From Erigeron canadensis (taxonomy: Eukaryota; Streptophyta; Magnoliopsida; Asterales; Asteraceae), in NCBI RefSeq assembly GCF_010389155.1, contig NC_057769.1:35387548-35451547 (forward strand): DNA of 64,000 nt, in the 5' to 3' direction. How positions within the stretch are numbered: the first letter of the stretch is position 1; each line of letters opens with the position of its first letter. This document shows positions 1,568 through 64,000 of the stretch, in pieces. Under the pieces are notes generated by a model. That model had not been told where the DNA came from. It was given only the letters and a program-made list of their open reading frames with translations, and ran no database searches. Made by a program: the position numbers and the translations under genes.

Positions 1568-1636
1568 TCTTCGTTTCAAGTGCACTCATCAAGCATTGTA
1601 AAATCAAATTCACTTTCAGTTTCCAATCTCTCTCCA

Positions 1637-4382
1637 ATGATGTTCAATCTTTTCCTAGTTTTCACAATTGTTTATGTAAGTGTCATTACAAACCTTTTTC
1701 CATACTTGAAGAAAATTCCAACCAACCATCAACGATTGATTGTCTCAAGTTTTAATTTTAAATATTGGTATGAGTAAAATGTTTTTAAAAATGAAAATAG
1801 ATTTTAAGAATAAAAATAGAGAATTTATTAAAATTTTGGATATATAAAAAAGGTTTTGGTTTAAAATATTAAAGTGAAACAAATAAAAATAATTTTTTTC
1901 TTTTGATTAAAAATCATTATGCATTATAGAAATCTTTATGAATCAATAAATTTTATCATGGTAAAAAGTTTATCCTAGTTGTTTTACTTTAATATTTTAC
2001 AATAATCGGTCTTTATTAAGAGATATATTATTTTTATTTATCCAAAGTTATAGATGTATGACAAATATAACAAACATATAATAATTTTATGTATATATAG
2101 TTATAGAAAGAAATCTCCGCACCTGTAATGCATGCAAACATATATAATTAAGTTTTGTGTACACTTAATATTGCAAAAGTTAAGCATATATATAAGAAAA
2201 GTAAAGTGCGACTTATTGATCCCATACGTTTGTAGCACCGAATTACCGAGTACTTGTTTTTACCCCTACCATGAACAAAAGTATGAGATCTATCATTCAT
2301 GTTTATCTATTAAATTTATAACATCATATATATAACAAACAGAATTAGATAAGTTGGAAAACCTCATCATCACTTTTACAAAGTGGTCGAAATTCCTTTT
2401 GGCTCAATGAACTTTTGTGTCGCAACAAGTAAATTAATTTGGAATACGTTTAAACTACAAAATATTCTTTTCGCTATAGATACTAAAAAAAATACGTACT
2501 GTAATATACAAATGTAATTATGTGATTGCAACATATATATAGGTGCATGTTTCGATCCTGCATATGTGTATTCTTGCTTTTTAGGCATTAATATAATCAC
2601 TCTTTCTCTTGGTACATGTTTTTGGTTACTTTGGATTTGATATATTTGTAAATGTTTATTATTTTTTACCAGGTATCACTTGTGGGAAGTCATGCCGTGA
2701 CTCCTGAAGATTACTGGAAGTCTGTTTTGCCAGACATTCGTATGCCAAAAGCGATCAAGGAACTTTTAGATCCACAAATATATAGAAACGTCGACCCCTA
2801 CACAACATCATCAGCTAAGGATCAGTTTAAAGATCTTCCCGAAGCATTCAAAGATCAATTACATAATAAAGAAAACACATTTTCTAATTCTGCATCCAAA
2901 GATCAGCCTCATACATTTCCATTACTTTATTCTGCATCCAAAGATCAACCTTCCAAAGATCAGCGTGATACATTTCCATTACTTTATTCTGCATCCAAAG
3001 ATCAACCTTCCAAAGATCAGCGTGATACCTTTCCATTACTTTATTCAACATCCAAAAAAGAGCCTGATACATTTCCGTTACTTTATTCCGCATCCAAAAA
3101 AGAGCCTGAAACATTTCCGTTACTATATTCTGCATCCAAAGATCAGGTTGACAAATTTCCGTTACTTTATTCTGTATCCAAAGATCAGCCTGAAACATTT
3201 CCGTTACTTTATTCTGCATCCAAAGATCAATCTTCCAAAGATCAGCGTGATACCTTTCCATTACTTTATTCGACATCCAAAAAAGAGCCTGAGACATTTC
3301 CGTTACTTTATTCCACATCCAAAGATCAGCCTGAAACATTTCCGTTACTATATTCTGCATCCAAAGATCAGCTTGACAAATTTCCGTTACTTTATTCTGC
3401 ATCAAAAGATCAACCTGAAACATTTCCGTTACTTTATTCTGCATCCAAAGATCAACCTTCCAAAGATCAGCGTGATACCTTTCCATTACTTTATTCCGCA
3501 TCCAAAAAAGAGCCTGAAACATTTCCGTTACTATATTCTGCATCCAAAGATCAGGTTGACAAATTTCCGTTACTTTATTCTGTATCCAAAGATCAGCCTG
3601 AAACATTTCCGTTACTTTATTCTACATCCAAAGATCAGCCTGACAAATTTCCGTTACTTTATTCTGCATCCAAAGAGCAGCCGTCCAATGATCACCTAAA
3701 AGATGACCCTAACGCCGCATTATTTTTCTTAGAAAACGACTTGGATCAAGGCAAAGAAATCAAGATACATCTCACAACAAAGGACCAAAAAGCTTTGCTT
3801 TTACCCCAAAAAATTGCTGATTTGATTCCCTTTTCGTCAAAGAATCTTACTCAAATTTACAACATGTTCTCAGTTAAACCATTTTCAGTAGAAGCCGAAA
3901 TCATGAAGCGTACACTTAGTCTATGCGAGCAGGAAAGAATCGAAGGTGAGGAAAAATATTGTGCCACATCCTTAGAATCCATGGTCGATTTTAGTACTAC
4001 AAATTTAGGTAAAAAAGTAAAACCGATAACAACAGAGGTGAATACTAAAGAAAGTAGTACCACACTTTCCAAGTACAAAATCAAAGGGTCCAGAAAGCTG
4101 GCTACAAATAAAGCCGTGGTTTGCCATAAGCTCAATTACGCGTATGCTGTGTTTTATTGCCATGCGGCAGTTAACGTTAAAGCATACGCCGTTTCTTTGG
4201 TGGGTGAAAATGATACCAAAGTGAATGCTGTGGCGGTCTGCCATATCGATACTTCCAAATGGGACCCACAACATATGGCATTTCAAGTGCTTAAAGTGAA
4301 ACCGGGAGGTGTTCCAGTTTGCCATTACTTACCAGAGGGTCATGTTGTTTGGGTTCCACGAACAACAACAAACTCGGCATGA
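1637..4382 (+). CDS. BURP1: BURP-domain protein with 17 FPLLYS repeats, candidate burpitide precursor-cyclase
   Basis: Two exons, 1637-1675 and 2673-4382, encode 582 residues. The 997-bp intron has GTAAG and a pyrimidine-AG acceptor. Exon 1 is 39 nt, as in the other three BURP copies here. The start is a hydrophobic signal peptide, probably cut after GSHA (about residue 21), followed by the conserved TPEDYWKSVLP segment. Residues about 94-349 are 17 tandem units, each containing FPLLYS followed by variable K, D, Q and E-rich linkers. The BURP domain runs from ALFF at 362 to the end and keeps the four CH motifs, spaced CHX10CHX25CHX25CH. RD22-type BURP proteins have glycine- and valine-rich repeats instead. 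BURP proteins with repeated aromatic-ended cores are known to be copper-dependent autocatalytic cyclases (burpitides); I infer that role here. Intron 2 of the neighbours is absent: the frame reads straight through. A repeat-bearing wall protein without cyclase activity is the alternative. Confidence 0.9.
2913..3680 (+). repeat. Coding minisatellite in BURP1, 42- and 57-bp units
   Basis: Seventeen units encode TFPLLYS or KFPLLYS plus a linker. Most units are 14 residues; four are 19 residues because the linker gains an extra SKDQR-type segment. A five-unit higher-order period (75 residues, 225 bp) is visible in units 3-7 and 8-12 and partly in 13-17. Proline uses CCA or CCG, leucine CTT or CTA, and serine all four TCN codons, yet FPLLYS never changes. 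Confidence 0.95.
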
Positions 4383-4430
4383 GAAAACATCTTATCTATC
4401 TATATATGTTTGTATCTCTGTCTGCATACA

Positions 4431-4500
4431 GGTATGTATGTATGTATGTATGTATGTATGTATGTATGTGTATGTATCAATGTATGTGTGTATGTATGTA
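4431..4500. repeat. TATG microsatellite
   Basis: An uninterrupted tetranucleotide run at about 4431-4469, then interrupted copies to 4500. It lies just 3' of BURP1, probably in its 3' UTR. Confidence 0.9.
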
Positions 4501-4569
4501 TTATGTGTTGGTCAACTCCTCATCATAATGTTCTGTTTGGGCTAATCTGCAATATTTGTAAATTTAAGA

Positions 4570-4575
4570 AATAAA
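4570..4575 (+). terminator. Likely polyadenylation signal of BURP1
   Basis: AATAAA about 190 bp after the BURP1 stop. It is the first good match downstream; the cleavage site is not resolvable. Confidence 0.5.
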
Positions 4576-4730
4576 TGCAGTCTTTAATTATATGTGTGTA
4601 ATGATTAACTGACGCGTCTTCGTTCATACATACATATGCATATGTCCAATGTTATCTCGCCTATCTATGATCTATCGGCAATTGCATGCTTAATAAAAAT
4701 ACGTATATGTGTATCATAAAACTACCTCCA

Positions 4731-4909
4731 AAGTGGTTTAATGGTTTGCATCTTGGACATTTTTATAAAAGATATGAGGTTCATGCGCGCTAGGTAATAT
4801 CTTGGAGGGGGCCAGAGAAAGGTTCAGCAATGGTTATAAAATACCCTGGTAAACCGCGTACATCTGAGAAAAAAAACTTACCTTCCCCAGGGTAACCTGA
4901 ATAGAGAAA
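4731..4909 (+). mobile_element. tRNA-derived SINE
   Basis: An A-box-like segment (GTGGTTTAATGG) and B-box-like GAGGTTCATGC about 45 bp apart are followed by a tail resembling the Au-type SINE 3' domain (CCGCGTACATCTGAG, then CCTTCCCCAGGG). A 7-bp repeat ACCTCCA flanks it at 4724-4730 and 4910-4916. Confidence 0.6.
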
Positions 4910-4916
4910 ACCTCCA

Positions 4917-5304
4917 TTTATATATGTTTATTTAAATGAACCCATTTGAGTTTACATCTTTTCCTCTATTAGAGAATAGTGATCCAGTTAAAATAGGGAA
5001 GAATGATTTCATCAATGATAGCTTCTGGTCAAAGCAAACCCTGTTTTGGGTTGTTCACATAACCCAAAAATCCGTTTGGAAAGCAACATCGACTTGAAGT
5101 GTTTTCTTGGTGTCCGGTCATAGTCGGCCCAGGAGAGAAGCCCATCCATTAATGGTCTAGTGAGAAGGATCTCAGTGATTATTCATCAAGCTTTTAGGAG
5201 ATTTCTTACAGTGATCGATGGCTAGTATTGGGCAAACAAATGTTCGGCAGTTTCGGTTAATAAGTTACAGAGAGGACAGCTGAATGAAGAGATTTGGATG
5301 TTTC
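4917..5304. other. Intergenic, no gene seen
   Basis: No open frame of note and no recognisable terminal repeats. The segmental duplication shared with the BURP3 region begins just to the right. Confidence 0.5.
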
Positions 5305-5369
5305 AAAGTTAATGCAAAAGTTTTGTCTTACTAAAGTTTAACATTATATAATGCATATAAATTACTAAG

Positions 5370-5633
5370 GCGGGATAGCATAAGACATAACTTCTTGGAA
5401 CTTCTTGCTTGCCTACTCAGCGCCACATCACCCATAAGAAAAGCTTCTCGGAACTTCTCACGATCACATTTCTATATCTTATCTCACTACCCCACTCCCG
5501 GTCCCACTTCGAGCTTCTCCCAACTTCTTCCAGGAGAAATTACGTTGGATACAGCCATGTAGACGCTCGGTGCCATTGATATTTAGCGTCTTGGAGCTTA
5601 GGGACCCACAGCAAGACTTTTATAGGCACCTGC
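5370..5633. mobile_element. 264-bp insertion with 5-bp target duplication CTAAG
   Basis: CTAAG lies at 5365-5369 and 5634-5638. The paralogous site near 15440 reads CTACG followed directly by AAAACAG, so it is an empty site. The insert is GC-richer than its surroundings and repeats GAACTTCT-type phrases. It has no clear terminal inverted repeat or coding content, so its class is unknown. Confidence 0.65.
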
Positions 5634-5803
5634 CTAAGAAAACAGTATATATATTTATATCTTGACGTTACATTATGATATAAAAATAAAAAAAAAAAAA
5701 AGTTGCAACAATACGTTACTAAATAGTCCCACAACTGATCAACCTTATAGATTATTGAAGCCACATATACTCACACATTGTATGTGTGTTTTTCTGGCTA
5801 AGT

Positions 5804-7491
5804 TTATTCATATGGAACCCAAACAACATGATCTTCAGGCAAAAAATGACAAATTGGAACACTTCCTGGTTTCACATTAAGCACTTGAAACGCCAAATGT
5901 TTTGGGTTCCATTTTGCGGTGTCTGTATGGCAAATTGCCACTGCATTAACTTTAGTACCATCTGCACCAGCCATTGAAACTGCATATGCTTGAATACTTA
6001 TGGTTTTATGGCAATAAAACCCAGCGTACATGTAGTTTTGCTTATGGCAAACCACTGCTTTCTTTGCAATGAGCTTTTTGTATAATTTAATTTTGTACTT
6101 CTGTAGAGTAGTAATGCTTGATCTAGCCCTTACTTCTGTTGATAATGCTTTCACTTGCTTACCTAATTTTGAAGTACTGAAATCGACCATGGATTCTAGT
6201 GAAGTCGCACAATTTTGTCTTCACCTGCAATGCCTTTGGCCTTGCATTCGTTAAGTGTTTGTTTCATATTTTCTGCTTCCATAGAGTCAGGCTTAATTGA
6301 AAAAACATTGCAGATTTGGGGAAGATTCTTTGAAGAAAAGGGTATCGAATCAGCAACTTCTCTAGGTAAAAACATTGCCTCTTGGTCATCGGACTTTATG
6401 AAATGCAAATTCATTTCTTTGCCTTGATGCAAGTCTTTTTCCAAGAAAAACAAAGCTACATTTGGATTATTCTTGAGCTGATCCTCAAAGGCAGCGTAGT
6501 GGTACACAAATGGATTTCGTGTTGGATGTACCCCCTACAGAAATTGGCCTCCTCTTGGGACCCGTATGCACCCCAACACCGCCTCTTCCAACACCAACAT
6601 TTGTCCGCCTCCCTGGTCTTCCAGTTTGCACACCTATACCACCCCTTCCCATCCCCATGTTAGTTCCTCTCTGGACTCCGGCTTTCTCCTCATTCTGTTC
6701 TGTAAATCAACAAAAATATTTCCAAAATTAGTTTAAGTATATATTACAAACAAAACGGAACAGTTAAGATATTACAAAACAATGGTCAACCTGTAGTATA
6801 TAGAAGATCCACAATGGCTTTTGGCATAGGACTGTTTGGCAAAACAGACTTCCAGTACTCTTCAGGAGTCACTGCATGACTTCCCGCAAGTGCTACCTAA
6901 TAACCAATCAATAATTAATGAAACATTAAAAATTACTACAAAAATAGTCGAACATATGCACACACAACTAGCTAGCGAGGATCAAATGAAACACTAAACA
7001 TTCAGAAGATCCTAAATTTCATAATGCCAAGCTTCTGCCCATGTATATATGTTACTTTGTTACAAATTCAGTGACGTATACATGTGAGAAGTTTTAGACG
7101 AGAGGCAACTTGGGAAAACGGTTTTTGATTATGTGTTTATACGCATAAAAGATAACCATGTCTATCAAAACGAGTCGTTGATGAACATTTGTCAGAATGC
7201 ATACAGCAATATGTATATGTACATGCATACGAGGGATAGCAAGACGCCAAACTGGATGCAGTGTTGTTAGAGAAACACTTCTAAGAATACTTGTAGCTTG
7301 TGCACAGTGATTGTTGTTTGTAACACAAGATCAAGAAACCGAAGTTAAAACTTTCTTTGACCATTTGGTTTCAAGAAACATATTATAGAGTTATAGACTA
7401 AGAGTTTTAAACTACCCAAAATCTAAGAACGATGAAAAATTATTATACTTACAGGAAAAAGTGCAAAAACCAGGAGATGATTAATTTTCAT
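5804..7491 (-). pseudogene. BURP2: RD22-like BURP gene, two frameshifts
   Basis: Exons in gene order: 7453-7491 (39 nt), 6791-6896 (106 nt), 5804-6699 (896 nt), with GT-AG introns. Exon 1 gives a signal peptide start (MKINHLLVFALFP); exon 2 gives the TPEEYWKSVLPNSPMPKA segment; exon 3 gives glycine-rich TXV-type repeats and the BURP domain, whose four CH motifs are still readable. Against BURP3 and BURP4, the C run at 6531-6535 has one extra base, which shifts the frame in the repeats. One base is missing near 6213, so the frame ends just before the conserved YCATSLESM segment. The two shifts cancel in length, but the whole linker and first half of the BURP domain lie out of frame. The remaining coding sequence is well kept, so the loss looks recent, or it could be a sequencing error. 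Confidence 0.85.
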
Positions 7492-7575
7492 TGGGGAGAG
7501 AAAGTGATGATGAATATCTGAATCAGTTTGTTAGGATTGTGATAATGCTTGAAGGGTGGTTTGATATGATGTATA

Positions 7576-14843: not shown

Positions 14844-15345
14844 TCAAGGCAAAGAAATTTTTTTTTGAACAGCAGTGGTGATTGGACTCAGGGGCATGCC
14901 TCTTCATCGTTCGGTAGAGGTCGACCACGTCACCAGCACAGTCAATCCGAGGGCATGACAGGCGGTGGAAGTCCCACTACCGTTCTGGAGGAAACTAGCT
15001 AATACTAGAGAAAACCCCCATGCTCCACCTCATTGGCAAAGACTTCCCAATATATCTTTCAAAGGTTTTGAAACCGTGACCAATATTTGGCTGAAAGACA
15101 TAAGGACATTAAATGTCCAGTTGGGCTAATCAGGCAAAGAAATAATGATGCATCTCACAAAAAAGGACCAAAAAGCTTTTACCCCAAAAAAATGTAGATT
15201 CAGTTCCCTTTCCGTCAAAGAATCTTACTCAAGAGTTACACCTGATTCAGTATAGATGCCAAAATCATGAAGCGGACACTCGGTCTATGCAAGCAGAAAA
15301 GAAACGAAGGTGCGGAAAAATATTTTGCAACGTCCTTAGAATGAA
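14844..15345 (+). pseudogene. BURP gene fragment, split by a SINE
   Basis: From TATCAAGGCAAAGAAAT at 14844 and again from 15133 to 15345 the DNA follows the middle of the BURP1 domain (the segments encoding GKEI, KDQKAL, FSSKNL, EIMKRTL and EKYCATS), with deletions and frame breaks. Nothing of the signal peptide or CH motifs is present. It is closer to BURP1 than to BURP2-4, for example in its AAGGACCAAAAAGC phrase. It lies directly left of segmental copy B, in the opposite orientation to BURP3. Confidence 0.8.
14859..15132 (-). mobile_element. tRNA-derived SINE inside the BURP fragment
   Basis: On the minus strand it begins near an A box (TAGCCCAACTGG), has a B-box-like GGTTTCAAAACC, and ends in a poly-A run (T run at about 14858-14866 on the plus strand). 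The 11-bp duplication GGCAAAGAAAT lies at 14848-14858 and 15133-15143, and removing one copy restores the BURP-like reading at that point. Confidence 0.8.
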
Positions 15346-16548
15346 GGAAAATGGATGTTTCAAAGTTAATGCAAAAGTTTTGTCTTACTAAAGTTTAACA
15401 TTATATAATGCGCATTATATAATGCGCATATATATATTACTACGAAAACAGTATATATATTATATCTTACATTATGATAAAAGAAAGTTGCAACAACACA
15501 TGACTAAATAGTCCCACAACTAATCAACCTTATAGATAATTGAAAAGCCACATACTCACATAATGTATGTGTATTTTTCTGGCTAAGTTATTCATATGGA
15601 ACCCAAACAAAATGATCTTCTGGCAAAAAGTGACAAATTGGAACACTTCCTGGTTTCACTTTAAGCACTTGAAACGCCAAATGTTTTGGGTTCCATTTTG
15701 CGGTGTCTGTATGGCAGATTGCCACTGCATTAACTTTAGTACCATCTGCACCAGCCATTGAAACTGCATACGCTCGAGTACTGATGGTTCTATGGCAATA
15801 AAACACGGCATACACATAGTTTTGCTTATGGCAAACCACCGCTTTCTTTGCAGTGAGCTTTTTGCATAATTTTATTTTGTAATTTTGTAGAGCGGTAATT
15901 GTTTTAGGCCTTACTTCTGTTGAAAATGCTTTCACTTTTTTACCTAATCTTGTAGTACTGAAATAGACCATGGACTCTAGTGAAGTCGCACAATATTTGT
16001 CTTCACCTTCAATGCCTTTGTTCTCACATTCGCTAAGTGTTTATTTCAAATTTTCTGCTTCCAACGAGTCGGACTTAATAGAAAAATCATTGTAGATTTG
16101 AGGAAGATTCTTTGATGAAAAGGGTATCGAATCAACAACTGCTTTAGGTAAAAACATTGCCTCTTGGTCACCAGTTTTCATGAACTGCAGATTCATTTCT
16201 TGGCCTTGATACAAGTTGTTTTCCAAGAAAAAGAAAGCTACATTCGGGCTATCCTTGAGCTGATCCTCAGAGGCAGCATAGTGGTACACAAATGGATTTC
16301 GTGTTGGATGTACCCCTACAGAAATTGGCTTCCTCTTGGGGTCAGTATGCACCCCAATACCGCCTCTTCCAACACCAACATCTGTCCGTCTCCCTGGTCT
16401 TCCAGTTTGCACGCCTATGCCACCCCTTCCCATCCCCACGTTAGTTCCTCTCTGTACCCCGACTTTCTCCTCATTCTGTCCTGTAACTCAACAAATTAAT
16501 TTCAAAAATTAGTATAAGTATATATTACAAACAAAGTGAAACAGTTAA

Positions 16549-16756
16549 TATAGAAAGTATAAGTTTAAGTTTTTTTTGTATCAAGTTGGAACTACAGGGA
16601 CTAGTATTGTAAATATTAGGTGTAAAGCTGTTAGGAAACAGTTAGCTTGATTATTGTATATATATCATTGTAATTATATAATTAAAATGTAATAACAATC
16701 ATATTTTATGAAAATTCTTTAATTCATTCTAATAATTCCGCACTTATAATTTCATA
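16549..16756 (+). repeat. 5' LTR of Copia A
   Basis: 208 bp, followed without a gap by the primer-binding site. It lies in inverted orientation relative to the BURP3 gene. Confidence 0.9.
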
Positions 16757-16768
16757 TGGTATCAGAGA
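16757..16768 (+). promoter_or_regulatory. Primer-binding site of Copia A
   Basis: TGGTATCAGAGA directly after the 5' LTR. TGGTATCAGAGC-like sites pair with the 3' end of initiator tRNA-Met, as is usual for plant Copia elements. Confidence 0.85.
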
Positions 16769-16990
16769 ACGAGGTGTTCGTCATGAATCTTCTTCTCCGA
16801 TGAAGATTCCGGCGATTTGAATATCGGATAATCACCATTTCTGTGTAATCAAGATCGTTAGGGTTTTGATTTCGGTTTTCCGGCCACCTTCTAGTGATAC
16901 ATCTTCTTGATATCGTTAATTGTTGTTTCTATTACTTTTATTGATTGCTATTATTTCCATTAGGAAATTAGGTCATTTTCTGCTATAAAA

Positions 16991-18103
16991 ATGGCTGCTA
17001 CTGGTAATTTTGTTCCTCCGATCAATCAGATTCAATCTCAATCAAATGATTCTTTATTTCTAACTAGTTCTGATCATCCTGGCATGATGTTGACTAATGT
17101 ACCTTTTAATGGAAGTAATTTCTTTGGATGGAGTAGAACTATTTAAATGGCTCTTGGCGCCAAATTGAAATTAGGGTTTATAGATGGATCTACTCCTAAA
17201 CCTGATGCTGCTCATGAGGATTTAGGGAGGTGGATTAGGTGTGATTATATGGTCACTTGTTGGATCTTGAACTCAATGACTGCATAATTGTCAGAAGCAT
17301 TCTTATATGCTAAATCTGCCAAGGAGCTTTGGACAGAATTGGGTGAAAGGTATGGTCAGAGTAATGGACCTCTCATTTATCACATTGAGAGGGAATTGAG
17401 TAAAGTGAGTCAGGGTGATTTATCTGTTGCTGCATATTACAATAAGATAAAGAAATTTTGGGATGAATTGACTAGTCTTCATGGAATTCCAGTCTGTACT
17501 TGTGGTAAAATGCAGGAGTGTACTTGTGGTATAACTAAGAAATACCAGGAGATAGAAGGGAGGACAAGATTGATGCAATTCTTGATGAAGCTTAATGATG
17601 GTTTTGAGTCTGTAAGGAATCAAATACTCTCCATGGATCTTCTGCCTACTATCAACAAGGCTTACTATATTGTCCAACAAGTTGAGAAACAAAAACAGGT
17701 CACCACTACTAATCCAGATCCCACTGCTTATTTTACAAACCAACAATATGCAAAATATAATCAGGGACAGAAGAGAGATTTCAAGATTGACAAAGGAAAG
17801 AATTGTACCTATTGTAAACAAGATGGACATTTGTATGAACAATGCTTTGAGAGGCTTGGCTACCCTGATTGGTACAAAGGTAAGAAAGGAAAGAAGGTCA
17901 ACAGGATGGCTGCTCAAGTTGGTGCTGATATTGGAATTAAGGATTCTCCTTTTGATTTTAACTATGAAAATGAAATTCATAATGAGCAAAAGAGTGATTT
18001 TGACAAGAATCTTGTGGATGCTGTTTGTTTTGAGATGATGAAGATGATGCAAGAAAAGAACATGGTGATGACTTCTAATGTGGATTTGGCTGGTCCTTTC
18101 TAA
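16991..18103 (+). pseudogene. Copia A gag, two in-frame stops
   Basis: The frame opens at ATG 16991 with a short leader, then the retrotransposon gag domain (LSEAFLYAKSAKELW and onward), and a CCHC knuckle CTYCKQDGHLYEQC. TAA stops at 17144-17146 and 17285-17287 interrupt the first third, and the frame closes with TAA at 18101-18103. The pol frame overlaps the last 26 nt in a different phase. In most plant Copia elements gag and pol are one frame, so a small indel near 18100 is likely. The stops make it non-functional unless bypassed. Confidence 0.85.
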
Positions 18104-21100
18104 GCTACATGCAGGTATATCTGCTGATTTCTATGAAAGAGTTTATGCTCTTTCTTGTGTTGTGGATATTGATATAGATAAGGACTGGGTTACTGACTCT
18201 GGAACTACAGATAGTATGACACCTCACTTGCATTTACTAGAGTCCATTAAAACTCTCAAATATCTCATTAGAGTCAAACTGCCAGATGGTACTATCAAAT
18301 TAGTCACCAAAATGGGTCAAGTCACAATTAATCCTTCTCTTATTCTGAAAGATGTCTTTTATGTGCCTGATTTCAAGGTTAACTTGTTATCAGTAGGTCA
18401 ATTATTGAATTCTCAACCATTAATTGCTATTTTTGGTCCAACTTGGTTTGCTTTTCAGGACCTTTCAACTAAACAACTTGTCACAGTTGGGAAAGGTCAC
18501 AAGAAACTTTACATCTGCAAGCCTTCAACAACTCAATCTCATGTCAACTTCTCTGCTTCATTGCTGCCTATTATTACTAGTTTTGTTAATCAAGTTACTA
18601 GTAATTCTAATGTTCCTTTTGAATTGTTGCATGCTAGACTTGGTCATACTTCTATGTCTAAGTTGATTCATGTAGATGGTTACAAAAATGTTGATGTTTC
18701 TCATTTTATGTGTGATACCTGTTTGTTATCCAAACAACATAGGTTGCCTTTTCCAAGAAGTGAATCTAAATCTTCAATTCCTTTTGAGTTGCTCCATGTG
18801 GATCTTTGGGGTCCTTATCATGTTCCTGCACTTAATGGTGCACATTACTTCTACACTATTGTTGATGATTTTAGTAGAAGTACTTGGACCTATCTTTTGC
18901 ACACTAAGGACCAAGTTTGTTCTATTCTGTCTAATTTCTTCTCTTTTATTCACAATCATTTTGCTAAAAGACCAAAGTTCATTCGTTCTGATAATGGGAC
19001 TGAAATAGTAAATAGTGAGGTGTCATCTCTTTTGAGGTCCTTAGGAATTGTGCATCAAAAATCTATGTCTTATACACCCCAACAAAATGGAAGGGTGGAA
19101 AGGAAACATAGACATTTATTGGATACTGCTAGGGCAATTAAGATGAATGCAGGATTGACAAAGAAATTTTGGGGGCATTGTATTTTAGCTGCTACATACT
19201 TGATTAATAAAATGCCAATGAAAATTCTGAATTGGAAGAGTCCTTTTGAGATGTTGCATGGAAAACCACCTTCTTACACAAATCTGAGAATTGTTGGATG
19301 TCTATGTTATGCTATTAATCCTAAACCTCATAGAGATAAGTTTGATCCTAGAGGTAATAAGTGCATATTATTGGGATATCCTCCTGGTCAAAAGGGCTAT
19401 CTGGTATATGATTTGGATTCAAAAGAAGTATTTACTAGCAGAGATGTTGTTTTTGATGAAACAAATTTTCCTTTTAAGAAACAAATTGGTACTTCTCATC
19501 AGTACAATCACAAGGGTCCAATGGTTAGTTTATCAAAAGAAACTGGTGAAGAATTAGTTAATATTGGATTTGATGTTCAACATGATGTTTCTTCTAAGCA
19601 AATGATTGCTAGTGATCAAAGAAATGAAGAGGGTATTGAAAATGGTTTTCAAGAAAATGCTAATATACAATCTGGTGGGCCAGAAATTATTAACCCTATC
19701 AGAAGATATGCAAGAAGTACCACTGCCCCAGTCTGGTTAAGGGACTTTGTGGTTCCTAATAAGAAGGGGTCTGCTTCATGTGTTGTCACCAAGCCAAGTT
19801 ATCCTATTTTTAAGAATTCTGATTTTGAAGCCTATACTCCAGATTATGTTGCTTCTTTAGCCCATGTTCTTGCTACTGATGAACCTTCCACCTATAATCA
19901 AGCTTCTCAAAATCCTGAATGGATTGAAGCCATGGATAAGGAACTCAAGGCTTTAGAACAAAATGATACTTGGGTTTTGACTGAATTACCACAGGGTCAT
20001 AAAGCAATTTCATCTAAATGGGTGTACAAAATTAAGTACAAGTCTGATGGAACCATAGAAAGGTATAAAGCAAGGTTGGTAATTAGAGGTTTTGATCAAA
20101 AGCCAGGAGTGGATTACAAACATACCTTTTCCCCTGTAGCAAAGGCTGCAACTGTTAGAGTATTGATTGCTATTGCTACTGCCAAGGGGTGGCCTCTACA
20201 TCAATTGGATGTAAATAATGCTTTTCTGCATGGTTTTGTGGATGAAGAAATATATATGTTTCCTCCACAAGGGTATAAAATGGCACTTCCTAATCAAGTC
20301 TGCAGATTGAATAAATCTTTATATGGGTTAAAACAGGCTTCTAGGCAGTGGAACCAAGAACTATCTAAATTTCTAATCTCATTGGGATTTATGCAGTCAA
20401 AGAATGATTACTCTCTTTTTGTCAAAAGAGAAGGGGAGGTGTTTACGGTTGTTTTGGTGTATGTTGATGATATATTAATTATTGGCAATTCTGATTCTGA
20501 AATAAGAAACACCAAAGCTGAGCTTGATAAAAAGTTTACCATTAAGGATTTAGGTCTTGCAAGGTATTTCCTTGGTATTGAGTTATGTAGGACTGATGAT
20601 GGGACATATTTGAATCAAAGAAAGTATATTCTGGATTTGTTAAAGGATGCAGGCATGACTGCTGCTAAGCCTGTTGAATTTCCTTTACCTACTCACCTTA
20701 AATTGTCTTTGGATGAAGGGGAGAGTCTTCCTGATTCAGAATCCTATCAAAGGTTAGTGGGCAGACTGCTCTATTTGTCAATGACTAGACCAGATATATC
20801 ATATGCAGTTCAACATCTTAGTCAATTTGTTTCAAGTCCTAAATTGCCTCACATGAAAGCTGTAATGCATTTACTGAGATATTTAAAGGGCTCAATTTCA
20901 AAAGGATTGTTTTATCCAATGCAGTCTAATCTAAAGGTTACAGGCTTTAGTGATGCTGATTGGGGATCTTATGTCATGACAAGAAAGTCTCTCACTGGGT
21001 ATTGTATATTTTTGGGACATTCTTTGGTATCTTGGAAGACTAAGAAACAGGCAACAGTTTCAAGATCATCTACAGAAGCTGAATACAGGAGCATGGCAGC

Positions 21101-21410
21101 AACAACATGTGAACTGATATGGCTCTCTTATTTATTGAAGGATTTAGGCATCAATGTGCAGATTCCAGTCACCTTATTTTGTGACAATAAGGCAGCTCAA
21201 CAAATTGCAGCCAACCCTTGTTATCATGATCGTACCAAGCATTTGGATATAGATTGTCATTTTACTAGAGATAAAGTGCAAGATGGATTCCTGCAAACAG
21301 CTTATATACCCACGAATCTTCAACTGGCTGATGTAATGACTAAGGCCTTGGGTCAGATGCAGCATTCTGTTTTGAGTAGAAAGATTGGTTTAAAGGAAGT
21401 TCCAACTTGA
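18078..21410 (+). CDS. Copia A pol: protease, integrase, reverse transcriptase, RNase H
   Basis: 1110 codons open from ATG 18078, though the true join with gag is lost. In order: protease with DSGT at residue 40; the GAG-pre-integrase zinc site (LHARLGH, then CDTC); integrase core with D242, D305 and E341 (D-x35-E spacing); reverse transcriptase with VYVDD (YVDD at 795-798); RNase H beginning near SDADWGSY and containing STEAEY. All catalytic residues I can identify are present, so pol has decayed less than gag. It ends just before the polypurine tract. The protein would act in cytoplasmic particles to copy element RNA and integrate the product. Confidence 0.9.
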   Translation: MWIWLVLSKLHAGISADFYERVYALSCVVDIDIDKDWVTDSGTTDSMTPHLHLLESIKTLKYLIRVKLPDGTIKLVTKMGQVTINPSLILKDVFYVPDFKVNLLSVGQLLNSQPLIAIFGPTWFAFQDLSTKQLVTVGKGHKKLYICKPSTTQSHVNFSASLLPIITSFVNQVTSNSNVPFELLHARLGHTSMSKLIHVDGYKNVDVSHFMCDTCLLSKQHRLPFPRSESKSSIPFELLHVDLWGPYHVPALNGAHYFYTIVDDFSRSTWTYLLHTKDQVCSILSNFFSFIHNHFAKRPKFIRSDNGTEIVNSEVSSLLRSLGIVHQKSMSYTPQQNGRVERKHRHLLDTARAIKMNAGLTKKFWGHCILAATYLINKMPMKILNWKSPFEMLHGKPPSYTNLRIVGCLCYAINPKPHRDKFDPRGNKCILLGYPPGQKGYLVYDLDSKEVFTSRDVVFDETNFPFKKQIGTSHQYNHKGPMVSLSKETGEELVNIGFDVQHDVSSKQMIASDQRNEEGIENGFQENANIQSGGPEIINPIRRYARSTTAPVWLRDFVVPNKKGSASCVVTKPSYPIFKNSDFEAYTPDYVASLAHVLATDEPSTYNQASQNPEWIEAMDKELKALEQNDTWVLTELPQGHKAISSKWVYKIKYKSDGTIERYKARLVIRGFDQKPGVDYKHTFSPVAKAATVRVLIAIATAKGWPLHQLDVNNAFLHGFVDEEIYMFPPQGYKMALPNQVCRLNKSLYGLKQASRQWNQELSKFLISLGFMQSKNDYSLFVKREGEVFTVVLVYVDDILIIGNSDSEIRNTKAELDKKFTIKDLGLARYFLGIELCRTDDGTYLNQRKYILDLLKDAGMTAAKPVEFPLPTHLKLSLDEGESLPDSESYQRLVGRLLYLSMTRPDISYAVQHLSQFVSSPKLPHMKAVMHLLRYLKGSISKGLFYPMQSNLKVTGFSDADWGSYVMTRKSLTGYCIFLGHSLVSWKTKKQATVSRSSTEAEYRSMAATTCELIWLSYLLKDLGINVQIPVTLFCDNKAAQQIAANPCYHDRTKHLDIDCHFTRDKVQDGFLQTAYIPTNLQLADVMTKALGQMQHSVLSRKIGLKEVPT

Positions 21411-21418
21411 GGGGGGTA
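21406..21418 (+). promoter_or_regulatory. Polypurine tract of Copia A
   Basis: CTTGAGGGGGGTA lies directly before the 3' LTR and overlaps the pol stop codon. This is the normal plus-strand primer site. Confidence 0.8.
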
Positions 21419-21626
21419 TACAGAAAGTATAAGTTTAAGTTTATTTTGTATCAAGTTGGAACTACAGGGACTAGTATTGTAAATATTAGGTGTAAAGTTG
21501 TTAGGAAACGGTTAGCTTGATTATTGTATATATATCATTGTAATTATACAATTAAAATGTAATAACAATCATATTTTCTGCAAATTCTTTAATTCATTCT
21601 AATAATTCCGCACTTATAATTTCATA
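21419..21626 (+). repeat. 3' LTR of Copia A
   Basis: 208 bp, same length as the 5' LTR, with about 7 substitutions and no indels. Confidence 0.9.
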
Positions 21627-22366
21627 GTTAAGATATTACAAAATACCAAAAAATGGTCAACCTATAGTATATAGAAGATCAGTGACGGCTTTTGGCATAG
21701 GACTGTTTGGCAAAACAGACTTCCAGTATCTTTCAGGTGTTACTGCATAACTTCCCACAATTGCTACCTGATAACGAAACAATAAATAACTAAACATAAC
21801 AAAATATATAAAAACAAAATAATCAAACATATACACAAGTAGCAAGCGAGGATCAAAATTCAAATGAAACACTAAATATTCTGAGGATTCTAATTTTCAT
21901 AATGTCGAGTTTCTGCCCAAGTTTGTTAGTTTGTCGCAAATTCAGAGACATAGACATGTGAGAAGGTCTGACAGTTTGTGAAACGAGTCGTTGATGACCA
22001 TTTGTCAGCATGCCCACCATAATATGTCTATGTACACGCATATGAGGGATATTTATAGCATGACTCAAAATTTGGATGCCATAATGTTAGAGAAACACTC
22101 CTAACAATACTTGTAGCTTGTGCACAACGATTTTTGTTTGTATCACAAGGTCAGGAAACCAAAGCTATGAATTCTCTGATCATTTGGTTTGCAGAAACAT
22201 ATTATAGAGTTTTAGTGTTAATAAACTACCCAAAAATTAAGGACCATATATGAAGAATTATTATATATACTTACAGAAAAAAGTGCAAAAACCAGGAGAA
22301 GATTAATCTTCATTGGAGAGAAACTGAAGTTGAATATCTAAATCATTTGGTTTGATATGATGTACA

Positions 22367-24363: not shown

Positions 24364-24574
24364 AAAGTATATTACTAAAAGTGAATCCCCAAATACTTCT
24401 CAAAGAGCATATACAATGATGATGGATTATTTTTATTTAGTCCAACTTTTGTTCTTTTTTTCTAGTCTAACTTTTGTTGGTTGATATTTGGATTTACATA
24501 TTGTTTTAATTTGTCATTCCCCTCTTCAATTTTCTAATGATTGATTTCTTTTATCACGCTAAATGGTTAAAATC

Positions 24575-24995
24575 AAGTAAAATTTTCCATGGCCCTTTTG
24601 TGTCTATGAAATACCCACAAAGTTGTTTTAACTCTTTTTATTTAACGGGAAAGACATACTTACACTTGCAACTACCTAATATCTTGTTAACTTAAGTTAA
24701 TTTGTATAATACAAAAAGTAGCTGAGATGACCCATAATTAGTTTGTGTCATTATCTTTAAGCTATGTACGCCGAAAATGACTGAATTATTATGTGTCACT
24801 TGACTCATGGTCTATAGCGAATGAATTATTAGGTGTCAGTAAATAGGTAGTTGAAATATCTGATATGCGTTTGATGATTTAAGGCTATAAATAACTGAAA
24901 GAGATATGATTATCCATTGAAAAGTCTAGTGTTGATAGGGGTTAGCCGATATGCAGTTAATTCGTTTGAATTAGTCATGCATATACAAATGATTG
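24575..24995. repeat. Segmental duplication, partner at 983-1345
   Basis: Same orientation as the partner. This copy has an additional stretch of about 90 bp around 24715-24850 with GTGTCA-rich phrases. No gene is present. Confidence 0.8.
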
Positions 24996-25917: not shown

Positions 25918-27874
25918 TTAGTATGGAACCCAAACAACGTGATCTTCGGGTAAGAAATGGCAAATTGGAACACTTCCTGGTTTCACTTTAAGTACTTGGA
26001 AGGCCAAATGTTTCGGGTTCCATTTTGCAGTGTCTGTATGGCAAACTGCAACCGCTTTCACTTTAGTACCGTCGGTACCCACCATAGAAACCGCATATGC
26101 ACGAGTACTGACAGTCTTATGGCAGTAAAATACAGCGTAGGCGTAGTTTTGCTTGTGGCAAACCACAGCCTTTTTTGCAGCCAGTTTTTTAGCTACCTGG
26201 ATTTTGTACTTCTGTAACGGGGTGTTTACTTTAGAATTTACCTCAGTAGAAATTGCTTTTACCTTTTTACCTAGTTTCATAGTACTAAAATCGACCATGG
26301 ATTCTAATGAAGTCGCACAATATTTTTCTTCACCTTCAATGCCTTTGTTCTCACATTCGTTAAGCGTTTGCTTCATAATTTCAGCTTCTGTTGATTCTGG
26401 TTCAACAGAGAACTCATTGTAAATTTGGGGAAGTTTGTTTGATGAAAAGGGTATCGAATCAGCCACTTTTTTAGGTAAAAATGTTGCTTTTTGGTTCTCA
26501 TTTTTGGTGAAATGTAGATTCATTTCCGCGCCTTGATGCAAATCGTTTTCCAAGAAAAACAAAGCGACATTTGGATCATCTTTTAGCTGATCCTCGGATG
26601 CAGCATATACATAAGCGAATGGACTGTATCCTTTATGTACTCCTACATAAACGGGCTTCCCTTTGCGACCAGTGTGCACTGCCACACCGCCTTTGCCAAC
26701 ACCAACATCTGTCCGTTTTCCTGGTTTTCCAGTATGCACACCGACGCCTCCTTTTCCAACGCCCACGCTAGTTCCTTTTCCTGGTGATTTAGTGTTAACA
26801 GCCACACCGCCTTTATGAACACCTACATATGTTCCCTTCCCTGGTTTTCCAGTGTTCACTGCTACACCGCCTTTTCCAACTCCCACCGCAGTATTTTTCT
26901 CATCGTCCCACTCTAAAAATTATAACAAAAAAAATTTTCATTTTTTTTTTTTTTACAATTTATAAGCTAACAAGAAGCAATTAATCAATAAATTATATAT
27001 AGAGGAATGAATTAATCAATAATAAACCTGGTAAAAGATCAGAGACTGCTTTTGGCATAGGACTGTTTGGCAAAACAGATTTCCAGTAAACATCAGGAGT
27101 CACTGCATGAGCCCCTACTACAAGTGCCACCTGATATATTATAAAAATTAAACACCAACCACAAATAAATGTCATAAATCAAACACTTTTGCCAAAAAAC
27201 ATGACATGTATAGCAAACATGGGATAATGTATGGATCTTGCTACAAGAATACTTTGGTATAAACACACACCATAATGGTAAGCATATACTTGTACTGATA
27301 CTTCCTGAATGGTACTTTGACTTTTCTGGTCAAAGTTTTAATACGGACATATAACGGAATACTTACCAAGAAGTGGGTGTTTTGCCGAATTTATGGGTGT
27401 GTGAATAGACGGATTCGTATGTATCTGTGTATATATAAACACGTACATCCGCATATAGACAAAGTTGGGGTTATTTCAGATAAAACAAATTTTTTTTGGT
27501 AAATTTGTACCACATTGTACGTACATAAGCCAAAACCAAATCAAAACTTTCTACGGTCATATGCGTTAAAACACATCAAAGTTTAAGACGTCATAATCGG
27601 AGATGATTTGTAACCGAAAACTTTACTTTGTAGTTTGTACACATATAAAGATTTAATCATGCAACATAGTATACATGATAACTTAACATAGTTCATTTAA
27701 AAAAAATTGGAACCCTTCTTATTGGATGATCAATAGCATGGACTTGCTAAAAAATCGAAACTACATACACACATACCGAGATAACCAAAATTTTATGATG
27801 TTGATGAAAGATATATAAAAATAGTATATACTTACGGAAAAAAGTGCGAAAATGTGAAAAAGATTGAACTCCAT
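25918..27874 (-). CDS. BURP4: intact RD22-like BURP-domain protein
   Basis: Exons in gene order: 27836-27874 (39 nt), 27028-27130 (103 nt), 25918-26912 (995 nt); GT-AG introns; 378 residues. A signal peptide (MEFNLFHIFALFS joined to VALVVGAHA) precedes TPDVYWKSVLPNSPMPKA. Residues about 57-144 hold four full 20-residue repeats and a partial fifth of the type VGVGKGGVAVNTGKPGKGTY, the TXV repeats of RD22. The linker SPFAYVYAASEDQLKDDP follows, then the BURP domain from ALFF at 164 to 378 with CHX10CHX25CHX25CH. RD22 itself is a drought- and ABA-responsive extracellular protein of Arabidopsis; a wall or apoplastic role is likely here. It is the only undamaged RD22-type copy of the cluster and the best reference for BURP2 and BURP3. 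I see no burpitide-like repeated core in it. Confidence 0.95.
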
Positions 27875-35343: not shown

Positions 35344-37150
35344 TGATGAGCGTCCATTTTGTGATAAAAATCCTTATTGAAATGCTTCATTTTAATGCTT
35401 AAATTAGTTAATATTTCGGAACTATCGGTACTTAATGGATCGTATGATTATGCAGGTTACGGAAGATGCGAAAGAGAGTAAATGACATCAAAAGACTCAA
35501 GAAGGAAGCCTATGAAGTTACAGGACACAAGGAAGTGATTCGGGAGTTAAACGAATAAGCGAAAGCTGCAGTAGGAGCCACCAGCGCCGCTAGCACCTAG
35601 CCAACGCCGCTGGCCATCAAGAACCAGCGCCGCTCCTTAATAACCAGCGCCACTAGCTCATTCAAGCCCAGTACCAGTGTCGCTGGTAAGCCCAGTTCAG
35701 CAACCGACTTTCACCTCTATTTAAGCCGAATTAACCCTCAAAACCCTAACAGAGAGAGAGAGCCGATTCAGCAGCCCTAGCCGCCCAGCAACAACCCTAG
35801 ATTGACTTTGCAGATTTCAAAGAGGTTGTGGAGCTTCTAACACCTTCCAATCTTCATTCTTGGTCTAGATATTTCATCTTTATTTAGTTTATATTATCAA
35901 ACTATGTCTTTTATCTTTTCAAACTTTGTTATTCCTTTAATAATGATATGCTAGTAGGCTGAATACTTGTTTGAATCGATGTGATCATGTAGACGCTTAT
36001 TGTTTTACTGTGTTTGTTTAGATTCTGTTGGAGTGTATTTTGCTGTTTATCGTAGATCCATGTTTATTAGTAATTCATGTTGCTATTGGTTTTATATCTG
36101 AACATATTAGTTTAATTCTGATGGTTGTCTATGATCATACACTAGGACTAATATTCTAGGACAGAAAATGACTATTCAGTCTTTAACTAGAAGTAAAAAG
36201 AGATTCATTTGTAACCGAGGGATCCAAAACCATAGTAATTAGGATGAATTGAACATGAAGCTTCACAATATCATACGCGATCCTTTGACTTTGTAACCGA
36301 GCACTGTGGTCACCGGAGAGAGTTATATCTAACCATGACTTAACGGTTGGGTAATTGAACATGATTCTGTTGGAGTGTATTTTGCTGTTTATCGTAGATC
36401 CATGTTTATTAGTAATTCATGTTGCTATTGGTTTTATATCTAAACATATTAGTTTAATTCTGATGGTTGTCTATGATCATACACTAGGACTAATATTCTA
36501 GGACAGAAAATGACTATTCAGTCTTTAACTAGAAGTAAAAAGTGATTCATTTGTAACCAAGGGATCCAAAACCATAGTAATTAGGATGAATTGAACATGA
36601 AGCTTCACAATATCAAACGCGATCCTTTGACTTTGTAACTGAGCACTGTGGTCACCGGAGAGAGTTATATCTAACCATGACTTAACGGTTGGGTAATTAA
36701 AAGATGAATTAGTAACACAAACTTTAGGTCATTAATGCTTCAACAATGAATCTAGCGAGAATTTGTCTATAAGGCAGTGTATGTCTAGCGACAGCACTAC
36801 TATTTAGGCGAAGTGAATTTAACAAGAATCTGAGCCGCGATGAAGTTTCCAACAGACTAGCAAACCAGTAGGATAGTATTTGGTCGTACCCTGAGATCGG
36901 AGATGCCAAACAAGTATTTTAATTTAATTACTGTTATTTGCTTTTTCAAAATATTTTCAGACCTAGCCTCTCGCTGAAAAGCGATTACGGCTATTTATTT
37001 ACTGTTAAGTATTAGTTTATTAGGAGTTCGTGACAAATCCCCAAAACAAACTAGAATTATACATACTACTAAATTAGGTAAAACAACGCGTCCCTGAGAA
37101 CGATCCTGTAAACTAGGCTATATTACACTGACCGCGTTCTCTGCTCATTA
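35344..37150. mobile_element. Possible long LTR of a Ty3-type element, boundaries uncertain
   Basis: The left part (GATGAGCGTCC onward, then GATTATGCAGGTTACGGAAG) and the right part (CGCGTCCCTGAGAACGATCC) resemble long LTRs of plant Ty3 elements, and TGAGC/GCTCA can serve as terminal arms. I find no target duplication and no gag-pol. 35565-35690 holds several degenerate CCAGCGCCGCT repeats. Confidence 0.35.
36021..36703. repeat. 342-bp tandem duplication, very similar copies
   Basis: GATTCTGTTGGAGTG occurs at 36021 and 36363, and the copies run to the shared TTAACGGTTGGGTAATT. Only a handful of differences are seen, so the duplication is recent or an assembly effect. Confidence 0.85.
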
Positions 37151-41321: not shown

Positions 41322-44084
41322 ATGGTAAGTGATACCTCTTTTCCATTTTCTCACTTTATTGCAATATTAGGAGTTACAACATTTGCTTATTATGTACTGT
41401 TCTTTTGTCAAACCACAGGTGAAGTTTACAGCTGAAGAGCTTCGTGGCATTATGGACAAGAAGCACAACATTCGTAACATGTCTGTTATTGCTCATGTCG
41501 ATCACGGTAATGAAACAGCTTAATTAGTTTGTTTAGTTATATAATGTCTGTGCATATCTTCTTGATATTACATAGTATTCTGTATTTTTTAATGGAAGTT
41601 ATAGTTCTAATTCAGTTGCTAACCTTGCTTTCCGTGTTTATAGGAAAATCCACACTGACTGATTCACTTGTGGCTGCTGCTGGTATTATTGCCCAAGAAG
41701 TTGCTGGTGATGTTCGTATGACCGATACCCGTGCTGATGAAGCAGAACGTGGTATTACTATCAAATCCACTGGCATCTCTCTTTACTATGAGATGACTGA
41801 TGCAGCTCTTAAAGCCTTCAAGGGAGACCGTGATGGGAATGAATACTTGATTAATCTTATTGATTCGCCTGGGCATGTTGACTTCTCTTCTGAAGTTACT
41901 GCTGCTCTGCGTATCACTGATGGTGCCCTTGTTGTGGTAGATTGTATTGAAGGAGTATGTGTTCAAACCGAAACTGTCCTTCGTCAAGCTCTTGGTGAAA
42001 GGATCCGACCGGTTCTGACTGTCAACAAGATGGATAGGTGTTTTCTTGAGCTTCAAGTTGATGGAGAAGAAGCATATCAAACCTTCCAGAGGGTTATTGA
42101 AAATGCTAATGTGATTATGGCTACATATGAGGACCCACTTCTCGGTGATGTCATGGTTTACCCTGAGAAGGGTACTGTTGCATTTTCTGCTGGGCTCCAT
42201 GGTTGGGCTTTTACTCTTACCAACTTTGCAAAGATGTATGCTTCCAAGTTCGGTGTTGATGAATCAAAAATGATGGAAAGGCTTTGGGGTGAGAACTTTT
42301 TTGACCCAGCAACCAAGAAGTGGACCACCAAGAGCACTGGTTCTGCTACATGCAAGCGTGGTTTCGTTCAGTTTTGTTATGAACCTATTAAGCAAGTTAT
42401 CAATACTTGCATGACTGACAAGAAAGATAAGCTCTGGCCTATGTTGGCGAAGCTTGGTGTTACCATGAAGGCTGAGGAGAAAGAGTTGATGGGCAAGGCT
42501 CTTATGAAACGTGTCATGCAGTGCTGGCTTCCTGCTGCTACTGCTTTACTTGAGATGATGATCTTTCATTTGCCTTCCCCTCATACGGCTCAGAGATACC
42601 GTGTGGAGAATCTGTATGAGGGACCTTTGGATGATCAGTATGCCAATGCTATTAGGAACTGTGACCCTAATGGCCCTCTTATGCTTTATGTTTCTAAGAT
42701 GATTCCCGCTTCTGACAAAGGTAGATTCTTTGCCTTTGGTCGGGTTTTTGCTGGGAAGGTTTCCACTGGTATGAAGGTCAGAATCATGGGTCCCAACTAT
42801 GTCCCTGGAGAAAAGAAGGATTTGTATAACAAGAGTGTTCAGAGAACTGTTATCTGGATGGGTAAAAAGCAAGAAACTGTGGAAGATGTTCCCTGCGGTA
42901 ACACAGTTGCTTTGGTTGGTTTGGATCAGTTTATTACTAAGAATGCCACATTGACAAATGAGAAGGAAACTGATGCCCACCCAATTCGTGCCATGAAGTT
43001 TTCTGTCTCCCCTGTTGTGCGTGTTGCTGTTCAGTGCAAGGTTGCATCTGATCTCCCTAAGCTTGTTGAGGGTCTTAAACGTCTTGCTAAGTCTGACCCT
43101 ATGGTTGTATGTACCATTGAGGAATCTGGTGAACACATCATTGCTGGTGCTGGAGAACTTCATCTTGAAATCTGTTTGAAGGATTTGCAAGAAGATTTCA
43201 TGGGTGGTGCTGAAATCAATGTTTCAGACCCAGTTGTGTCCTTCCGTGAAACTGTCCTTGAGAAATCAAGCCGCACTGTTATGAGCAAGTCCCCTAATAA
43301 GCACAACCGTCTCTACATGGAAGCCAGGCCCTTGGAAGAGGGACTTGCTGAGGCTATTGATGATGGCAGAATTGGTCCACGTGATGACCCAAAGGTTCGC
43401 TCCAAGATCTTGTCCGAGGAATTTGGATGGGACAAGGATCTTGCCAAGAAGATCTGGTGTTTTGGACCTGAGACAACTGGTCCCAACATGGTTGTTGATA
43501 TGTGTAAGGGAGTCCAGTATTTGAATGAAATTAAGGATTCAGTGGTTGCTGGTTTCCAGTGGGCTTCCAAGGAAGGTGCTTTGGCAGAAGAGAACATGAG
43601 AGGTATCTGTTTCGAAGTGTGTGATGTTGTTCTCCATGCTGATGCTATCCACAGAGGTGGAGGTCAAGTCATCCCAACAGCCAGAAGGGTTATCTATGCT
43701 TCTCAGCTCACTGCCAAACCCCGCCTTCTTGAACCCGTCTACCTTGTTGAAATCCAGGCACCTGAGAATGCTCTCGGTGGAATCTACAGTGTTTTGAATC
43801 AAAAGCGTGGGCATGTGTTTGAGGAGATGCAGAGGCCTGGAACTCCATTGTACAACATCAAGGCGTATCTTCCTGTCGTGGAATCATTTGGGTTTTCTAG
43901 TGCTTTGAGAGCATCTACTTCAGGACAAGCCTTCCCGCAATGTGTGTTTGATCACTGGGATATGATGGGATCAGATCCGTTGGAAGCTGGATCACAGGCG
44001 AACAATCTTGTTACTACTATCCGTAAGAGGAAGGGTTTGAAGGAGCAGATGACACCACTCTCTGATTTCGAGGACAAGCTGTAA
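41322..44084 (+). CDS. Elongation factor 2 (eEF2), complete
   Basis: Coding exons 41322-41324 (ATG only), 41419-41506 and 41644-44084 join to 843 residues plus stop, the usual plant eEF2 length. A non-coding first exon ends at 40338, and a 921-bp intron in the 5' UTR leads to 41260. Visible motifs: P-loop AHVDHGKST (26-34), T57 in RMTDTRADE (the site phosphorylated in animals), [18 protein letters not shown], and [12 protein letters not shown] with the diphthamide histidine at 700. It is the GTPase that translocates tRNA and mRNA on cytosolic ribosomes; in Arabidopsis the gene is LOS1. An intron placed directly after the start codon is notable but cleanly spliced (ATG|GTAAGT). No damage is seen, and the telo-box and pyrimidine-rich leader suggest strong growth-linked expression. 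Confidence 0.97.
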
Positions 44085-63800: not shown

Positions 63801-64000
63801 ATTACTCTAAGTTGTCATTTGAGAATAAGTGTTTTGCGTCTCAGTTGAATAAAAGTACTCAACCTAATTCATTTTTTGAGGCTTCTAAATATGAATATTG
63901 GAATGAAGCTATTAATAAAGAAATGGAGGCTTTGTAGAGAAATGAAACTTGGGATTTGGTTGACTTGCCTGCTAATAGAAAACTTATAGGTTGCAAATGG
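60826..64000 (+). pseudogene. Copia B gag-pol, several frame breaks
   Basis: From ATG 60826 (MDDDNLRG) the frame covers gag, the protease (CDSGANQHMTHS) and the start of integrase (zinc site WHCRLGH, then CDVC; first aspartate in HLDVWGP). The gag knuckle reads GDHCGFNGHTIDKC, so its first cysteine is glycine. The frame closes at 62775 because of an extra A in a run near 62770. A second shift lies near 62930, before the AERKH segment. An 11-G run at about 63010-63020 breaks the frame again. After the open stretch to 63937 a TAG at 63935-63937 interrupts just before RNETWDLVDLP, where reverse transcriptase begins. The window ends there. It is not functional. Confidence 0.9.

Follow-up and report, generated by a model that had tools for sequence, protein, structure and literature searches.

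The closest proven product to the peptide considered here is elaeagnin, of core LPIIY, in which Tyr is joined to the beta-carbon of Pro (PubMed Central record PMC10349150). We analysed a 64,000-nucleotide stretch of horseweed DNA (Erigeron canadensis, Asteraceae; contig NC_057769.1, positions 35,387,548 to 35,451,547, hereafter the window), in which a gene at 1637-4382 of the forward strand, called here the FPLLY gene, encodes repeated FPLLY cores ahead of a BURP domain. EpuBURP, from Elaeagnus pungens, shares with it the BURP-domain precursor and a repeated residue-Pro-aliphatic-aliphatic-Tyr pentapeptide (LPIIY), whereas its first core residue is Leu (Phe here), its aliphatic pair Ile-Ile (Leu-Leu here) and its number of cores 6 (17 here); note that the two are likened by core only. 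The selanine precursor SkrBURP, from Selaginella kraussiana, shows the same fused multi-core plan with Tyr-ether rings and includes LLY inside its cores ILLY and FLLYPY, but its rings are Leu-Tyr 14-membered or bicyclic, its product is N,N-dimethylated and the gene belongs to a clubmoss. The legumenin precursor AhyBURP from peanut (structures 8sy2/8sy3) shares the BURP fold, the conserved Cys and the four Cys-His (CH) motifs; in contrast, it is USP-type and bears a single core, which contains Trp and lies within the BURP domain, at its N-terminal end. In jujube, ZjuBURP and ZjuPrec-FPIY (lotusine A) involve a Phe-Pro-aliphatic-Tyr core closed at Pro2 (PMC12871766), but in a split pathway with a BNM2-type cyclase, a four-residue core and a decarboxylated and N-methylated product. 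Closer in descent, Asteraceae RD22-like proteins share the N-terminus (YWKSVLP...MPKAI), a BURP domain up to 72% identical and a linker-like pre-BURP sequence, whereas in typical members the core array is replaced by TxV-type repeats and a single PFxYxYAA segment. The FPLLY gene is a good candidate for an addition to an already known kind, the fused burpitide precursors.

The FPLLY gene, its repeat array and its BURP domain

The region 1637-4382 is a real plant gene, with two exons encoding 582 residues (Table 1). Its spliced product is identical to the public predicted protein P0001 of Erigeron canadensis, save one 19-residue unit missing from P0001, which thereby has 16 cores compared to 17 in the window gene; among the database matches P0001 ranked first (100% across the BURP region), and it comes from a gene model labelled 'isoform X2'. 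The initial annotation, made from the letters of this DNA, had seen a signal peptide, 17 FPLLYS repeats and a BURP domain with all CH motifs in one reading frame. Repeats and domain were borne out (PF03181; Table 1), while the single frame holds for the spliced product and not for the genomic DNA, since the hydrophobic N-terminal exon lies across the 997-base intron; residues 2-17 have a mean Kyte-Doolittle value of 2.29, a hydropathy that makes the segment a putative signal peptide. By its N-terminus (63-69% identical to the RD22 copies of the window, YWKSVLP...MPKAI type) and by its BURP domain, the gene is assigned to the RD22 subfamily, and the nearest BURP domains, among the matches listed, are those of Asteraceae RD22-like proteins. 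P0001 contains none of the TxV-type glycine/valine repeats, so that the gene would be RD22-derived rather than a typical RD22.

All 17 FPLLYS units are identical, each core ends in Tyr, and all stand N-terminal to the BURP domain on the same chain. FPLLY was found 17 times compared to a maximum of 1 per shuffle (2000 shuffles of the protein), and it does not occur in the other five of the six frames of the window. Tandem Repeats Finder detected a 225-bp super-repeat (3.3 copies, 2952-3694) with five cores per unit. Between units, the core codons display silent differences only (synonymous proportion pS 0.221, nonsynonymous proportion pN 0.000), whereas three overlapping or adjoining five-codon linker stretches gave pN of 0.126, 0.151 and 0.249 at pS 0.174-0.212; this constancy of the core against linker drift is suggestive of constraint on the core, not conclusive, because the array grew by duplication and offers few independent changes. 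Among 164 close relatives (two lists, the best 120 of 498 and the best 120 of 820), the X-Pro-aliphatic-aliphatic-Tyr pattern was observed as a repeated core in one, P0001 itself, and as a single match in four others. A search with the repeat array alone gave no match at E<=0.01 among the 7992 candidates sharing most words, whose length window (about 144-457 residues) makes it informative on split precursors and not on fused ones. Two Pfam hits were rejected as repeat matches, namely Ank_2 (residues 253-330, 28.7 bits where 27.3 are required, with no single stretch passing) and Sulfatase_C (under its cut-off).

Concerning the BURP domain, the predicted structure shows the cyclase fold, and structural alignments with 8sy2/8sy3 (29-36% identity) place the conserved Cys and the four CH motifs opposite each other. 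The conserved Cys pair corresponds to Cys431 and Cys443, and the CH spacing of 10/25/25 residues fits CHX10CHX25-27CHX25-26CH.

Predicted product and rival readings

Anatomy and precedent support well the predicted fusion of a precursor to its own cyclase. We consider it rather probable that the FPLLY gene encodes a burpitide precursor of the fused, multi-core type within the RD22 branch of BURP proteins, whichever ring is formed, and it probably yields a small cyclic peptide. The chain would enter the secretory pathway and bind copper through the histidines of the four CH motifs, as suggested by the AhyBURP structure; Tyr5 of each FPLLY in its own N-terminal array would then be cross-linked to a carbon in one of the residues upstream, two hydrogens being lost in the process, presumably by a bond from Tyr5-O to Pro2-Cbeta giving an elaeagnin-type 17-membered ring, and plant proteases would cut the linkers to release up to 17 copies of cyclic FPLLY. 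We infer activity, ring site, processing and product alike from sequence and from the described systems. The masses of about 651.36 and 649.35 Da given by the initial annotation are correct (calculated values of 651.363 for the linear peptide, 649.348 minus two hydrogens and 650.355 for the cyclic [M+H]+), but its Leu-Leu-Tyr ring, modelled on cores of the X-Leu-X-Tyr pattern, is not the best choice, as both elaeagnin and jujube FPIY (PMC12871766) close at Pro. Indeed, FPLLY fits the residue-Pro-aliphatic-aliphatic-Tyr pattern of LPIIY, bonded Pro-Tyr, and thus Pro2-Tyr5 appears the better prediction, about twice as likely as Leu3-Tyr5 and other sites.

The Leu3-Tyr5 ring, with Phe-Pro left outside, is a variant within the fused-precursor reading and not an addition to it, and we regard it as unlikely. 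Closure two residues before Tyr has precedents in ArbB2 on LLLY (Y4-L2) and ZjuBURP on FPIY (Pro2-Tyr4), Leu-Cbeta ethers exist in selanine A, and the five-residue core FIPFY reported for ZjuBURP may close at its third residue; however, elaeagnin closes at Pro despite an aliphatic residue two before Tyr (PMC10349150), and the five-residue cores of arabipeptin close between residues 2 and 5 (PMC12186524). The two rings are isobaric and are distinguished by the Phe-Pro fragment (unmodified b2 at a calculated m/z of 245.128). A structural or cell-wall protein, whose Tyr repeats would be cross-linked between chains (e.g., by peroxidases) or remain uncross-linked and whose BURP domain would act as in stress-related RD22, seems unlikely. 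RD22- and PG1beta-type BURP proteins have been tied to cell-wall expansion and cell enlargement (PMC8672867), the four CH motifs are present in 160 of the 164 relatives, and most repeat cores of the relatives are rich in Tyr and do not follow the elaeagnin pattern; against it stand a core exact in 17/17 units among drifting linkers and the match of that core to a proven burpitide, by its X-Pro-aliphatic-aliphatic-Tyr pattern. A silent or decaying gene amid BURP duplications and transposons is very unlikely: of the four other BURP copies in the window, three are broken or reduced to a relict, and the unit number differs (17 in the window, 16 in the public record), whereas the FPLLY gene is open along its frame, its splice sites are canonical, its array never leaves the frame, public databases list an 'isoform X2' gene model, and the nonsynonymous to synonymous rate ratio (dN/dS) of its BURP domain is 0.20 compared to that of the neighbouring RD22-type gene B3.

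Several observations nevertheless weigh against the fused-precursor reading. Foldseek gave template-modelling scores of 0.51-0.54 by query length with 8sy2/8sy3, at root-mean-square deviations of 5.2-12.9, and residues 1-17 of the model, which take in three of the last core's five residues, have a predicted local distance difference test (pLDDT) below 50, so that docking of the core is unsupported. The four CH motifs, found in nearly all the relatives, many of which are RD22-named, are no marker of a cyclase and no proof of activity; likewise, the initial annotation had counted repeat-bearing homologues devoid of catalytic BURP residues as evidence against itself, and all 20 proteins listed as repeat-type or sisters keep the four motifs, which says little given their frequency in the relatives. 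Since the array is mostly 3.3 copies of one 225-bp unit, the codon comparison draws on few independent changes. To our knowledge, cores of the relatives such as QFYAY and TAFFY match no known burpitide. In addition, the characterised cyclases whose subfamily is named in the available text are USP-type (AhyBURP) and BNM2-type (ZjuBURP), not RD22, and S/TxY-rich precursor cores are described in PMC11250218 as prevalent with no molecule assigned.

If the fused-precursor reading is true, an RD22-derived gene of the daisy family joins the sources of cross-linked plant peptides, with a single gene giving 17 copies of one product of predictable mass. It would also offer a concrete way in which a common stress protein may turn into a peptide factory, and single out, in ordinary RD22 proteins, a substrate segment open to testing. 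The initial annotation called the precursor undescribed; the protein is in fact already public under the label of a predicted BURP protein, and among open-access papers the string FPLLY turned up in a single one, unrelated by its title. Among the matches listed in open-access PMC for burpitide, BURP or cyclopeptide-alkaloid work on Erigeron or Asteraceae, only PMC11253845 deals with burpitides, and it does not name Erigeron; a further open-access match cites a Ziziphus study in its references.

Relatives and the possible origin of the repeat unit

Repeated Tyr-ended five-mers were identified in 17 of the 20 repeat-type or sister proteins (window gene and P0001 included), and none was found in P0143, P0153 and P0154. 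The cores comprise QPSSY/YFPSY in Smallanthus, QGYIY, KSYIY, QFYTY, TAFFY, QFYAY, LFYKY and FLNRY in sunflowers, PLIRY in Tagetes, YFWLY in Deinandra, QTYSY in Bidens, and RIFLY and LIFTY in Heracleum (Apiaceae). The conserved Cys-pair pattern failed in two of the 20 proteins: P0131 has the pair, the pattern being too narrow, and in P0153 the pair was not found. P0031 (Smallanthus sonchifolius) displays four FPSY units resembling the jujube lotusine core FPIY, and we propose it as a second candidate Pro-Tyr burpitide gene in Asteraceae. P0138 (Heracleum sosnowskyi, hogweed) carries nine units (7 RIFLY and 2 LIFTY) before an intact BURP domain and falls in the Apiaceae part of the tree.

The BURP tree was built on 62 chosen rows, i.e., 59 of the 164 relatives and three window copies (the RD22-like copy B4 in, its counterpart B2 out; Table 1), and the label 'multi' was given to 16 rows, including P0143, P0153 and P0154 with their lack of repeated Tyr-ended five-mers. 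The window gene groups with 11 proteins, 9 of them with Tyr-ended repeats (96/75, not starred; end branch 0.47), and Deinandra P0030, sunflower P0025 and P0153, and Heracleum P0138 are placed elsewhere. The repeat label changes four times on the best tree, three of them forced by starred branches, and these changes are gains or losses. Repeat-type BURP genes may thus have more than one origin from RD22 stock.

A segment F-x-Y-x-Y-A-A-S/T-x-x-Q-L-x-D-x-P-N, or a close form, stands before the BURP domain in 123 of the 164 relatives. When the consensus repeat unit was aligned at the DNA level with this pre-BURP segment, 0 of 2000 shuffles equalled the result for B3 and B4 (both shuffles), and 29 and 22 of 2000 did so for B2, which is hardly above chance; FPLLYSASKDQ of the repeat unit aligns opposite FAYVYAASEDQ of B3. 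A 19-column protein profile of the segment (from the 123 proteins) was also run against 14 repeat-type or sister proteins, with an RD22 as positive control and 500 shuffles each. No shuffle reached the score of the window gene, P0111 (best 2.3, shuffle maximum 2.0), P0037, P0045, P0030, P0031, P0025, P0138 and the RD22 control; for the others, the score was reached by 1 (P0095), 2 (P0131), 10 (P0129), 12 (P0143), 102 (P0123) and 106 (P0121) shuffles. It should be noticed that in P0025, P0138 and the window gene the profile scores best in the tail directly ahead of BURP and not in a repeated core; the claim of origin is therefore carried by the DNA comparison with B3 and B4 rather than by the profile, and an origin from this slot is not shown for every array.

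The segment keeps its Pro, its Phe and its two Tyr without exception in 61 chosen RD22-type relatives and B3, although the choice itself favours invariance. In the AlphaFold model of B3, residues 1-30, which hold the segment region, have pLDDT below 50 except residue 21, which would suit a free substrate-like tail and proves nothing alone. One may speculate that the PF-x-Y-x-Y-A-A segment is a single cryptic core cross-linked by its own BURP domain, and that multi-core genes arose repeatedly from it by tandem amplification and residue replacement, with FPLLY in horseweed, FWLY in Deinandra, FLNRY and LFYKY in sunflowers and IFLY in hogweed as possible examples; we hold this to be distinctly unlikely. 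If it were true, RD22, known as a drought marker, would be a copper enzyme that modifies itself.

Neighbouring BURP copies and the rest of the window

The features of the FPLLY gene and of the other BURP copies are collected in Table 1.

Table 1. Positions in the window of the FPLLY gene, its parts and the neighbouring BURP copies
Feature	Position	Strand	Remarks
Exon 1	1637..1675	+	start codon and first half of hydrophobic signal-like N-terminus, MMFNLFLVFTIVY
Intron, 997 bases, GTAAGT...CAG	1676..2672	+	donor GTAAGT, acceptor ATTTTTTACCAG
Exon 2, from the RD22-like N-terminal segment through the repeat array and BURP domain to the stop	2673..4382	+	
17 FPLLYS cores with 8- or 13-residue charged linkers between them (SKDQ/SKKE type)	2916..3665	+	residues 95-344
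Last core and pre-BURP linker; repeat unit resembles PFxYxYAA segment of neighbouring RD22-type genes	3648..3719	+	
BURP domain (PF03181); its predicted fold resembles that of the peanut cyclase AhyBURP (8sy2/8sy3)	3720..4358	+	Pfam E=2.4e-81, residues 363-575
CH motif 1, Cys497-His498	4122..4127	+	aligned with 8sy2
CH motif 2, residue 509	4158..4163	+	aligned with 8sy2
CH motif 3, residue 536	4239..4244	+	aligned with 8sy2
CH motif 4, residue 563	4320..4325	+	aligned with 8sy2
RD22-like copy B2, frame broken in BURP region, convergent with FPLLY gene	5813..6932	-	
BURP-domain relict, 79% DNA identity to FPLLY gene	15132..15342	+	
BURP part of RD22-like copy B4, in-frame stop	15597..16265	-	
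B4 N-terminal RD22-like exon	21669-21767		beyond Copia-like element (named by reading)
Gene B3, RD22-type, with TxV repeats and a frame open through its three exons; its pre-BURP segment is PFAYVYAASEDQLKDDPN	25918..27874	-	

The convergent pair formed by the FPLLY gene and its RD22 neighbour (1600-7500) looks block-duplicated at 15100-22320, where the FPLLY-side gene is represented by a 211-base relict and the RD22 copy contains a stop and is split by a Copia-like insertion. Frames of Copia-like retrotransposons, named by reading, occupy 17510-21410 and 60826-63937. Upstream of the FPLLY gene, three stretches at 981-1345 recur at 24574-24993 with 88-93% identity and probably represent a repeat element within or close to the promoter of this gene. 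Elsewhere in the window, an 846-residue frame at 41544-44084 (+) is, we presume from its reading, a translation elongation factor 2, and two tandem copies of a 342-bp unit (98% matches) lie at 36021-36698.
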